A DNA stretch of 64,000 nucleotides, from contig CADABQ010000005.1 of NCBI GenBank assembly GCA_902786205.1, positions 62,001 to 126,000 on the forward strand, in the 5' to 3' direction. Every line of letters begins with the position of its first letter. Position 1 is the stretch's first letter. Below, piece after piece: positions 17,965 through 64,000 of the stretch. Source of the stretch: an uncultured Lachnospiraceae bacterium. GTDB lineage: Bacteria; Bacillota; Clostridia; Lachnospirales; Lachnospiraceae. A model generated the notes under the pieces. The model ran no database searches. It saw only the letters and a list, made by a program, of their open reading frames with translations, and was not told the origin of the DNA. A program made the position numbers and the translations under genes.

Positions 17965-18015
17965 CCCTTTCCTGCAAAGTATTTATCTGATAAACAAATC
18001 TATCATACCATTTTA

Positions 18016-18090
18016 TGCTCCCTACCACGGTATTAACCGACAGGTTCAAAGGGTCAGGCAACGCCTTCTCAACACGTAGTTCCCCTGCAT
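18016..18090 (-). promoter_or_regulatory. TPP riboswitch aptamer
   Basis: The minus strand shows the THI-box core: GCAGGGGA opening strand, the TTGAGA equivalent of CTGAGA, then GACCCTTTGAACCTGT and a closing ACCGTGGTAGGGAGC. These are the pyrimidine- and pyrophosphate-sensor helices of the TPP riboswitch. With the downstream terminator it should shut off thiCED when TPP is abundant (established mechanism, applied here by inference). Confidence 0.95.
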
Positions 18091-18102
18091 ATTTTCTTTT
18101 TC

Positions 18103-59713: not shown

Positions 59714-60082
59714 TTAACCCAGTAATCTATAAACCACTTGCAACGACACTCCCTTTTGTTTTGCAATTCTCTCTGGTGAATATCCATTTAGGGCATCTTC
59801 TACAATTTGTATTGCCTGTTCATATTCTTGTAGTTTTTGATCCCGTTCTTGTACCAATTGTTCTCTTCGTTCCAACAAGGATACCGATGCTTTAGAGGTA
59901 ATTTGCATAAAATCCTGTTCCCAAATTTCTTTTACCATTTTTTCTGCCTGGTTTTGGTCTAGTCCAAAGCTTTTTCTGATTGCTAAAATTGTTTCTTCCT
60001 TCGTTTTATCAAATTCTTTATAATTCTCTATCTTCGTTTGAATTGCAACTTTTTTAAGATATTCCTGCATTCCCTGATCCAT
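59714..60082 (-). CDS. Small helical protein with C-terminal HTH, possible Rpn remnant
   Basis: 122 residues, entirely helical and charged (LEEREQLVQERDQ-like stretch), ending GYSPERIAKQKGVSLQVVYRLLG, a helix-turn-helix-like motif. This recalls the C-terminal end of the Rpn protein at 18214 (KGFDATETADILDLDKTYVS). It may be the tail of a decayed Rpn gene or a small regulator. No family recognised. Confidence 0.5.
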   Translation of the reverse strand: MDQGMQEYLKKVAIQTKIENYKEFDKTKEETILAIRKSFGLDQNQAEKMVKEIWEQDFMQITSKASVSLLERREQLVQERDQKLQEYEQAIQIVEDALNGYSPERIAKQKGVSLQVVYRLLG

Positions 60083-60417: not shown

Positions 60418-62559
60418 TTAAGCTGTTTTCTTTTTCGGTTTATTTTGAATGTCTATATATCCAACAATATGTTCTGCTAATTCTTCCATATCCATATTGC
60501 TTGTATTCACACAAAGGTCATAATACTGTGGGTTTCCCCATTCATACGATGTATAATAATTGTAATAGGCTTCTCTTCTTTTTTCTGTTTTATTTACATA
60601 CTGTTTTGCCTTTTCATAACTTACGTGATCACGCTCTGCAATATGTTTGATTCGATCCCCTAAATTTGCCACCACAAATATATCTATTGTTGGTATCTTA
60701 GCCTGATCTAATACATAATTCGAGCACCGTCCCACGATAATGCAAGAAGATTTCTTTGCAAGGTCTAATACGATCTGAGATTGCACTTCAAACATTATGT
60801 CACTTGTAGCTGCCTCATACTCTTTTGCTGCAAACATGCCACCAGCAGTAAGCGCATGTACCAACTCATTTCTCGGTACTTCTTCTTCTTTTCTGACCGT
60901 ATCTTCATCTAAATTTAGCTCCTTGGAAGCTAACTTAATCATATCCTCATCATAAATTGGAATATCTAATTTCTTTGCCAATATACCCGCCAATTCTTTT
61001 CCGCAACTTCCATATTGGCGACCAAATGTAATAACCAGATTATGACCCGTACTATTTTCGTAACTCTTTGCACCAGAATAGGCACTCACATCAATATTCT
61101 GCACTAAAGAGGCTGCGCCGACACCAACACCATCCGCTTCCTCATATCCATCAATTACCCAATCATTTTCAACCGAAATTCCAAGATACTCATCCGAATA
61201 TCCGGATGTAACTTCTGCTTGTGGGAATTTTTTCAAATACCACACCTTCATAATTACATAATACACAATAAATCCAGTAGGCAGTCCAAATAAATAACCA
61301 TAATCGGAACCAATATTTGCAGCAATTGTACCTAAAATCCAAGCTGCCATTCCTGCTAAATTTACACCACCGTGAAAACGGTACTGTCCATCTTCCTTAT
61401 AAAGTTCTTGTACATTTAATCTTCTTCTACGAATTACGTAATAATCACAAATCATAATTCCAGCCAACGAAGATAAGAAAGAACCGAAATATCCCAAATA
61501 AGTATATAACTGATTTAAAATATTCCAGGGTTGTACACACACACCAATCAATCCAGCAATAAGCACTCCCACTTTATACGGCATATTCCATCTGGCACCT
61601 GCGTTTGTAAAACACATGGCCGGAGGCACTAAATTTGCTGCTGTATTGGTGGACCACTGTGCTAAAATAACCATTAAAAGTAAAACAATCAACACTGGTC
61701 CCTTTGCTGTTGCCTGTATTACTTCTACCGGATTCCAGTTTCCTGTTGTTAAATAGGAAATCGCACCGATAACGGCAATAAATGTTTCAATCAGTGGCAA
61801 GGTTGCAAATTGTGGAATCCAATTATTTTTATTTCGCTTAAACCAGTTTTTTTCTCCCACAGGTGCCTTCAAACTTCTTGTCATATTAGGAATATCAGCC
61901 GCTAATGCTGCCCACATACCAATATTGGCACACATGGTAATCATCCAACAACTTGCTGTAGGATGTGGTGGCTTGTAACCCAAAATTTTTATATTGTTAA
62001 TGGCCGCAATATTATTTACTTTATAAAACATCCAACAAGTAATCAAAATAATACAGGGAGCAGCAAATGAGGCAAACTTATCAATTGCTTTCATTCCAAG
62101 CATCGTATTTACAATCTGTAATATTGCAAACACAGCAAACCAAATAGGCCAATTGTCAATTCCAAACAATGCTAAGGTAAAATAGTTAATTGCTGTAGCA
62201 CCAATGTAGGTATTGATACCAAACCAACAGGATGCTACAATTCCTCTTGCAATTGCCGGCAAATGCACACCCGCTAATCCAAAGGGTGCTCTCAAATACG
62301 TCGCAAACGAAAGTCCATGTTCAACACCAATATCTCCTGTCAAACTTCCCACAATGGCAATGATAATATTTGCTACTAATGTAGCAGAGGCTACACCCCA
62401 TATATTCATTCCGTCAATTCCACTTGCACCAAAACTAAATACGGAAATTACAATTGCCATTCCAATCCAGATATTTGCAAATCCAAGACCACCTAAGGTT
62501 CTCTTTTTTGAAGTTATCGGTAATATATCTTCCGAAATAAGTGTACTTTTTCCTTTCAT
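60418..62559 (-). CDS. NCS1 permease fused to cytidylate-kinase-like domain
   Basis: 713 residues in one uninterrupted frame. Residues 1-450 form an NCS1 nucleobase/hydantoin:cation symporter with about 12 membrane helices: GFANIWIGMAIVISVFSFGASG, SCWFGINTYIGATAIN and QWSTNTAANLVPPAMCF are family stretches. A linker (450-505) leads to a cytidylate-kinase-like domain (508-705). In it, GRQYGSCGKELAGILAKKL (513-531) is the P-loop (Cys where Gly is usual), VGRCSNYVL the next conserved block, and REAYYNYYTSYEWGNPQYYDLCVNTS the tail. Transport and phosphorylation could be coupled. It is next to hyuB, which points to hydantoin or a related compound as substrate. Confidence 0.88.
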   Translation of the reverse strand: MKGKSTLISEDILPITSKKRTLGGLGFANIWIGMAIVISVFSFGASGIDGMNIWGVASATLVANIIIAIVGSLTGDIGVEHGLSFATYLRAPFGLAGVHLPAIARGIVASCWFGINTYIGATAINYFTLALFGIDNWPIWFAVFAILQIVNTMLGMKAIDKFASFAAPCIILITCWMFYKVNNIAAINNIKILGYKPPHPTASCWMITMCANIGMWAALAADIPNMTRSLKAPVGEKNWFKRNKNNWIPQFATLPLIETFIAVIGAISYLTTGNWNPVEVIQATAKGPVLIVLLLMVILAQWSTNTAANLVPPAMCFTNAGARWNMPYKVGVLIAGLIGVCVQPWNILNQLYTYLGYFGSFLSSLAGIMICDYYVIRRRRLNVQELYKEDGQYRFHGGVNLAGMAAWILGTIAANIGSDYGYLFGLPTGFIVYYVIMKVWYLKKFPQAEVTSGYSDEYLGISVENDWVIDGYEEADGVGVGAASLVQNIDVSAYSGAKSYENSTGHNLVITFGRQYGSCGKELAGILAKKLDIPIYDEDMIKLASKELNLDEDTVRKEEEVPRNELVHALTAGGMFAAKEYEAATSDIMFEVQSQIVLDLAKKSSCIIVGRCSNYVLDQAKIPTIDIFVVANLGDRIKHIAERDHVSYEKAKQYVNKTEKRREAYYNYYTSYEWGNPQYYDLCVNTSNMDMEELAEHIVGYIDIQNKPKKKTA

Positions 62560-62758: not shown

Positions 62759-64000
62759 TTATGCACGTAGTGCTTTTGTTGCTTCCACATCTACTGTCAT
62801 CGTTTTTGGATCAATTACGACACCATAAGATGTTTTTGCGTCCTCAATGGTTGTAAAGTCATCCAATACATCTCCTAATACTAATTTTGGATCCCTTTCC
62901 ATCGGATTTCCATATCCGCCACCACATGGAGTGCAAATCTGTAATACATCACCTTCGTCGAACTCTTCATCCGATAGCTTTGACTCCAAACTAATTGCTT
63001 CTCCAGATTTCTTTAACTTTGTCATACTTGCTGAGGTTCCGTTGCTACCTCCAAAAATTCCCTTTGGTGCTTCCTTATGTCTATCACCCTCACAAGTAAC
63101 GGTTCCTTCCTGTAAAAAGCGTGTTTCACGAACAATTCCCAATCCACCTCTCCATTTACCTGGAGCAACCTTTGCCGGATTCAATTCATAACGCTCTACA
63201 CGAAGTGGATAATGCCACTCAATTTCCTCAATTGGAACATTTCTTGTATTGGCAACTAATGCATCACAAGAGTCAATCGCATCCTTACCACAACGTCCAC
63301 CATAAGATCCTTCATCTACTTCAAGATATACCCAATATTCACCCTTTTCCTGACTAAATCCATTATAACTAACAAAATGGATATGTGCAGAAGTACCCGC
63401 AGACACTCTGTCTGGCATCACATCTGCCAAAGACCTCATAACACAATCAGCCAACAAATTTGCCTGATTAAATCTTGAAAAAGAAGCACGTGGGAAGTTT
63501 GGATTAAAGATACAACCCTTCGGTGCAATTACCGTTACCGGTCTTCTCATACCATCATTCTGCGGAATGTATTGATGATAAATATTATCATCTAAGAACA
63601 AAGTATGCATAATATAACTAATAGACGTCATAGTCGTTCCTTCAAAAGATGCATTGAAAGCGGTATACACTTCATCTGCACTACCCGTTAAATCAATTGT
63701 GATTTCATCTCCCTTGATCGTTGTTGTCGTACATACCTTAAGCATTTTATCCAAATGCTTACCATCGTTATCCAACCATCCTTCTGCATAATAAGTACCA
63801 TCCGGAACCTTTGCAATGGCATTTCGAAGCATTCGTTCTGAATAATCCATCCAATCTTCAATGGCAGAAAATACAACTGGTACCGTATACTTATCCAATA
63901 ATTCTGTAAAACGCTTAATTCCATGTTTTGCAGATGCAATCATAGCCTTTAAGTCATTGGCATTCATAGATGGTGTACGAACATTATCCATAATCATCTG
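62759..64000 (-). CDS. hyuB: Hydantoinase B/oxoprolinase family protein, N-terminus outside window
   Basis: The frame is open at the window edge; 413 residues are visible, including the full C-terminus. Motifs: PRASFSRFNQANLLADCVMRSLAD, SAGTSAHIHFVSYNG, WRGGLGIVRE and the C-terminal GGGYGNPMERDP, all typical of HyuB/N-methylhydantoinase B. Usually acts with HyuA to open hydantoin-type rings with ATP. Located directly upstream of the permease-kinase fusion gene in the same direction. The start lies beyond base 64000. Confidence 0.92.
   Translation of the reverse strand, partial: QMIMDNVRTPSMNANDLKAMIASAKHGIKRFTELLDKYTVPVVFSAIEDWMDYSERMLRNAIAKVPDGTYYAEGWLDNDGKHLDKMLKVCTTTTIKGDEITIDLTGSADEVYTAFNASFEGTTMTSISYIMHTLFLDDNIYHQYIPQNDGMRRPVTVIAPKGCIFNPNFPRASFSRFNQANLLADCVMRSLADVMPDRVSAGTSAHIHFVSYNGFSQEKGEYWVYLEVDEGSYGGRCGKDAIDSCDALVANTRNVPIEEIEWHYPLRVERYELNPAKVAPGKWRGGLGIVRETRFLQEGTVTCEGDRHKEAPKGIFGGSNGTSASMTKLKKSGEAISLESKLSDEEFDEGDVLQICTPCGGGYGNPMERDPKLVLGDVLDDFTTIEDAKTSYGVVIDPKTMTVDVEATKALRA

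Follow-up and report, generated by a model that had tools for sequence, protein, structure and literature searches.

What does a membrane transporter do with a nucleotide-kinase-like domain at its C-terminal end? The question is raised by a gene on the minus strand (60418-62559) of the window, a 64,000-nucleotide stretch of a contig from an uncultured Lachnospiraceae bacterium. The gene is a single uninterrupted ORF of 713 codons, and its 713-aa product consists of an N-terminal NCS1 symporter followed by a PF13189 "cytidylate kinase-like" domain. Pfam analysis revealed that both parts are essentially full length, as had been read in an earlier note made from the sequence alone. PF02133 matched residues 14-435 (61255-62520, minus strand; E = 6.6e-55; 187 bits against a cut-off of 23.5; profile positions 1-438 of 440), and PF13189 (Cytidylate_kin2) matched residues 509-687 (60499-61035, minus strand; E = 1.4e-49; 169 bits against a cut-off of 28; profile positions 1-175 of 176). 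The stricter NCS1 subfamily model TIGR00800 scored 214.9, under its cut-off of 353. According to Pfam and to the alignment with fused relatives, the end of the NCS1 core and a variable linker occupy residues 436-508 (61036-61254, minus strand); linker residues 461-505 of the window copy share just 39 to 55% identity with those relatives. An AF2 model of the whole fusion was of low confidence (pLDDT 66), too poor for domain packing. The promoter scan at the fusion scored under the shuffle mean and was uninformative, and the Rfam scan detected no RNA element close to the gene. The sole Rfam match in the window was a TPP riboswitch (RF00059) at 18002-18096 on the minus strand (59.2 bits; gathering score, 54.3).

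A sequencing frameshift that joined two genes, which the earlier note had named as a possible refutation, and an assembly artefact are excluded, because the same two-domain ORF is intact in four other genomes. The search for full-length matches that the earlier note had proposed, done as a scan of genome contigs, detected the protein in five further genomes (L001 to L005; 71 to 81% identity). In the fifth copy (L001:3539-5700), the kinase-like domain contains a break in the frame and runs out of frame near residue 646, which may be true inactivation or an assembly error. L001 is the nearest relative, and a similar 122-aa gene follows the fusion in both (window 59714-60082, minus strand; L001:5847-6215). 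The six fusion genomes belong to Lachnospiraceae, other Clostridia, and Selenomonadaceae. The fusion is rare: this genome alone carried it among 392 sampled in the order and 398 in the phylum, and the six further genomes of its genus lacked it. Furthermore, the G+C content of L003 is 60%, compared to 37 to 44% in the other fusion genomes, yet in a tree its kinase-like domain clusters with that of the window, which suggests that the fusion was moved by horizontal transfer.

The transporter half is closest, by sequence and by fold, to the NCS1 hydantoin permease Mhp1 (PDB 2jln, 4d1a), with which it aligns over fusion residues 7-459. Identity in the fold alignment is about 26%, and Mhp1 has no kinase-like domain. 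Three of four Mhp1 residues compared are identical: Trp117, Trp220, and Asn318 are kept as Trp112 (62224-62226, minus strand), Trp216, and Asn309 (61633-61635, minus strand), while Gln121 is replaced by Asn116. In Mhp1, Trp117 stacks onto the hydantoin ring, Asn318 hydrogen bonds with hydantoin, and a Gln121Asn exchange reduces uptake and binding only in part (PMC4195764). The contig scan also detected approximately 60 Bacillaceae NCS1 proteins (L006-L067) that match the transporter part with about 43 to 57% identity but lack the PF13189 domain. None of their loci carries the gene set described below; in a few of them, read by eye, dihydropyrimidinase-, PreA-, and PucR-like genes lie nearby.

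The gene context was informative about the likely cargo. A hyuB-like gene (PF02538) precedes the fusion on the minus strand (62759-64000) and extends beyond the window end; its 590-aa product is complete at L075:1760-3532. In L002 to L005, the gene order is N-carbamoylsarcosine amidohydrolase (CSHase)-like, hyuA, hyuB, fusion. In this genome, hyuB and then hyuA continue the same order beyond the window, and the amidohydrolase is represented by its last 40 residues alone, at the contig end, with 88% identity to the L002 protein. An EamA exporter gene directly follows the fusion in L002, L004, and L005. The two upstream genes match caprolactamase models (CapA/CapB of the ATP-dependent hydantoinase/caprolactamase family, to which HyuA/HyuB also belong) below cut-off. 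The best solved match of the amidohydrolase, however, was N-carbamoylsarcosine amidohydrolase (1nba; E = 2.5e-63), and this neighbour points to N-methylhydantoin rather than caprolactam. N-methylhydantoin is a creatinine breakdown product made by bacteria. The three enzymes, assigned their substrates by homology and encoded together, match an anaerobic Clostridium route leading from N-methylhydantoin via N-carbamoylsarcosine to sarcosine (PMC4417704), which makes N-methylhydantoin (from creatinine), or else a similar cyclic ureide, the most likely cargo. The hydantoin degradation context that the earlier note had seen in the adjacency to hyuB is thus supported and sharpened, and a likely importer for N-methylhydantoin can be named in gut-type anaerobes. 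A search for the sarcosine/glycine reductase component GrdB (PF07355) gave 0 matches in this genome but was uninformative, since control genomes were equally silent. A search for a creatinine-deiminase-like enzyme, limited to PF01979, gave just a dihydroorotase-like gene, next to one resembling pyrF, as judged by eye.

To the kinase-like half, the earlier note had attributed a P-loop intact except for Cys at residue 519. The Cys was correct, but the PF13189 family has no canonical Walker A motif (GxxxxGK[ST]) at all. The fusion motif is GRQYGSCGKE, with the P-loop-like part GRQYGSCGK at residues 513-521 (60997-61023, minus strand), and the family consensus is [SG]RQYGSGG[RHK]. Among 65 stand-alone relatives, position 519 is Gly in 58, position 520 is Gly in all, and position 521 is R, H, or K in 60. 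The six NCS1 fusions have C, H, R, R, R, and R at position 519; we therefore rejected the idea that Cys519 is a local defect of this copy.

The only sequence relatives of the domain with solved structures are 3hdt (a "putative kinase" of Clostridium symbiosum) and 3fdi (Eubacterium ventriosum). Modelled by itself (pLDDT 83), the domain resembled them with TM-scores of 0.88 and 0.87, normalised to the length of each structure. Both are stand-alone proteins without assigned function, and 3hdt has Gly at the 519 position. The next fold neighbours, with clearly lower scores, were shikimate kinase, CMP kinase, dephospho-CoA kinase, and adenylate kinase. None of the enzyme-level family models hit the domain above cut-off. 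The CMP kinase equivalog TIGR02173 scored 42.3 bits against a cut-off of 102.1, and BLASTP against the canonical Cmk, which is encoded separately elsewhere in this genome, gave E = 0.83; CMP kinase by homology was rejected on these grounds.

These neighbours would fit an active nucleotide or metabolite kinase that is tethered to the transporter for local supply or co-regulation and whose soluble substrate has nothing to do with the cargo. In line with this, Arg514, Arg611, and Arg662, which are near-invariant and would suit a site that handles phosphate, are kept, so the domain could be an active kinase. The divergent P-loop, the lack of an enzyme-level match, and the presence of a canonical Cmk gene argue against a tethered kinase, and we consider it unlikely, although less so than a structural role, a phosphoryl switch, or trapping.

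The altered motif could also mean that the domain is a degenerate, nonbinding appendage that merely aids folding, oligomerisation, or localisation. Such decay would be consistent with the exchange of Gly519 for Cys, His, or Arg in 6/6 fusions, with Glu in place of Asp659 in four of the five copies that reach this position, and with the broken frame in L001. However, Arg514, Gly520, Asp537, Arg611, Arg662, and Trp674 are kept in all NCS1-fused copies covering them, so that the other family-invariant residues are almost all retained. Moreover, dN/dS of the kinase-like domain was 0.07 to 0.12 in the pairs with computable dS (most pairs were saturated), and by this measure the kinase-like part of the fusion is under strong purifying selection. 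Since invariant residues are retained and dN/dS is low, we conclude from the alignments that the domain is maintained, with an altered phosphate-loop region. A purely structural role is accordingly rather improbable.

The earlier note had stated that NCS1 proteins and this kinase family are normally separate. This holds for NCS1, but PF13189 was repeatedly associated with transporters. PF13189 was present in most relatives searched, frequently in multiple copies, and this genome encodes four PF13189 proteins besides the canonical Cmk. One other of them (L069) is itself a fusion, with a DUF6198 membrane protein. Pfam runs on L069 and on L231, L232, and L233 revealed PF13189 C-terminal to MATE (L231), EamA (L233), and DUF6198 (L069, L232) proteins. 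Further DUF6198-like fusions (L135-L137, L140, L141) were recognised by length, hydropathy, and similarity by eye.

In addition to fusions, we analyzed gene neighbours at 60 further PF13189 sites (L160-L219), mostly secondary copies, which the site choice favours. A same-strand gene with at least 8 predicted transmembrane segments lay directly upstream in 14/35 PF13189 cases and in 16/214 controls (Fisher p = 2.9e-6; segments counted by a simple hydropathy scan, control genes taken from the same loci). Secondary transporters were upstream in 15 of 38 PF13189 cases, namely MATE (6), CitMHS (6), NhaC-type Na+/H+ antiporter (2), and LrgB (1), compared to 3 of 40 controls (MATE, 2; DctM, 1) among the 25 commonest control families listed (p = 0.001). 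Several of these pairs overlap or almost abut, with gaps of -4 to +15 bases. ABC_tran genes were upstream in 8/38 PF13189 cases and 6/40 controls; because the controls were similarly frequent, ABC transporters are not counted as enriched. Downstream neighbours showed no significant excess of membrane genes (10/30; p = 0.08). In many genomes, the best-scoring PF13189 copy follows an RluD-like pseudouridine synthase gene and has no adjacent transporter, so linkage to transporters does not extend to the entire family. Adjacency to a transporter gene is also not proof of physical coupling.

In a quick tree of 127 PF13189 domains, the NCS1-fused domains formed one clade (SH-aLRT 100). The transporter-linked domains were scattered, and at least five changes were forced for the group with an upstream membrane gene. 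Judged by this tree, links between PF13189 and transporters arose more than once.

The repeated occurrence of the domain at the C-terminus of membrane proteins, importers and exporters alike, would suit a phosphoryl switch, in which transport is set by a phosphate that the domain places on the transporter or on a partner. For the NCS1 fusion we regard this as improbable: no protein-kinase family matched, and no phosphorylation site was identified. Least probable of all is the trapping of an imported compound by phosphorylation, which the earlier note had suggested and for which PnuC/NadR with nicotinamide riboside offers a parallel: despite the P-loop kinase fold and several near-invariant Arg and Asp residues that are kept, the family lacks Walker A and every NCS1 fusion has lost Gly519, hydantoins and the carbamoyl compounds of the operon enzymes carry no hydroxyl that could accept a phosphate, and exporters (MATE, EamA, ABC exporters), for which trapping would be pointless, are among the proteins to which the same domain is fused or coupled.

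Of the two mechanisms raised in the earlier note, nucleotide gating fits better than trapping. We propose that the fusion is a cation-coupled NCS1 protein that imports a cyclic ureide, most likely creatinine-derived N-methylhydantoin, with its C-terminal PF13189 domain on the cytoplasmic side. There, the domain would bind a nucleotide or nucleotide-like ligand, and the bound ligand would gate the NCS1 transporter allosterically. Characterised HyuAB-type hydrolases consume ATP at each turnover, and uptake would in this way track the nucleotide or energy state of the cell. Cargo, orientation, nucleotide binding, and the gating with its direction are all read from homology and context, and for the proposal as a whole we see roughly even chances. 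If it is true, a kinase-derived domain joins the known regulatory tails of transporters. A precedent for nucleotide control of a transporter in Bacillota is KimA, a KUP-family K+/H+ symporter of Bacillus subtilis (PDB 8b70), which is inactivated by the nucleotide second messenger c-di-AMP (PMC10284832). KimA was also among the matches of the fold search, but it belongs to another transporter family and has no known PF13189 domain.

The exporters that carry the same domain (MATE, EamA) make trapping unlikely as a general role of PF13189, which across transporters looks more like a switch than a cargo-trapping enzyme. A shared role in transport control, by nucleotide binding or as a phosphoryl switch, is favoured because one assumption covers all cases. 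A wider and more tentative reading, which we hold to be possible but short of probable, is that PF13189 is a general, kinase-derived transporter-regulating module of Bacillota. By sensing nucleotides or installing phosphate, it would gate both importers and exporters, drawn from seven or more unrelated families (NCS1, MATE, EamA, DUF6198, CitMHS, NhaC-type, and LrgB), either as a C-terminal fusion or as a co-expressed partner. If so, this would be a new kind of nucleotide control over transport. NCS1 symporters and PF13189 domains are each already known. Among 5.4 million openly available papers, we found no description of the NCS1-kinase fusion or of the wider transporter linkage, no function for PF13189 despite two crystal structures, and no PF13189 protein for which a ligand, an activity, or gating had been measured. 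The repeated fusion and coupling to unrelated transporters offers this orphan family a direct, testable role.

Several PF13189 loci had further features. A longer form of about 320 to 350 aa, with an N-terminal extension of about 120 to 140 residues, was found in L138, L143, L214, and L235; it lies 12 to 15 bases behind a CitMHS_2-type gene in L214 and L235 and behind similar-looking transporter genes in L138 and L143. In L234 (1330-2607) and L236 (369-1394), PF13189 is followed by a C-terminal extension; the extensions of the two loci resemble each other and look nuclease-like by eye, and a hypoxanthine phosphoribosyltransferase-like gene adjoins; many PF13189 frames of 316 to 366 aa may share this form. 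Two PF13189 genes stand in tandem, 6 bases apart, at L119:1471-2736. In L077, L090, L101, L104, and L148, PF13189 lies directly behind a LivF-like gene, apparently the last of a branched-chain amino acid ABC transporter operon. Finally, on a contig from a viral collection (L237:793-2782, read by eye), a MATE-like gene overlaps a PF13189 gene by 8 bases and two serine recombinase-like genes adjoin, which suggests that such a pair is able to travel on mobile elements.
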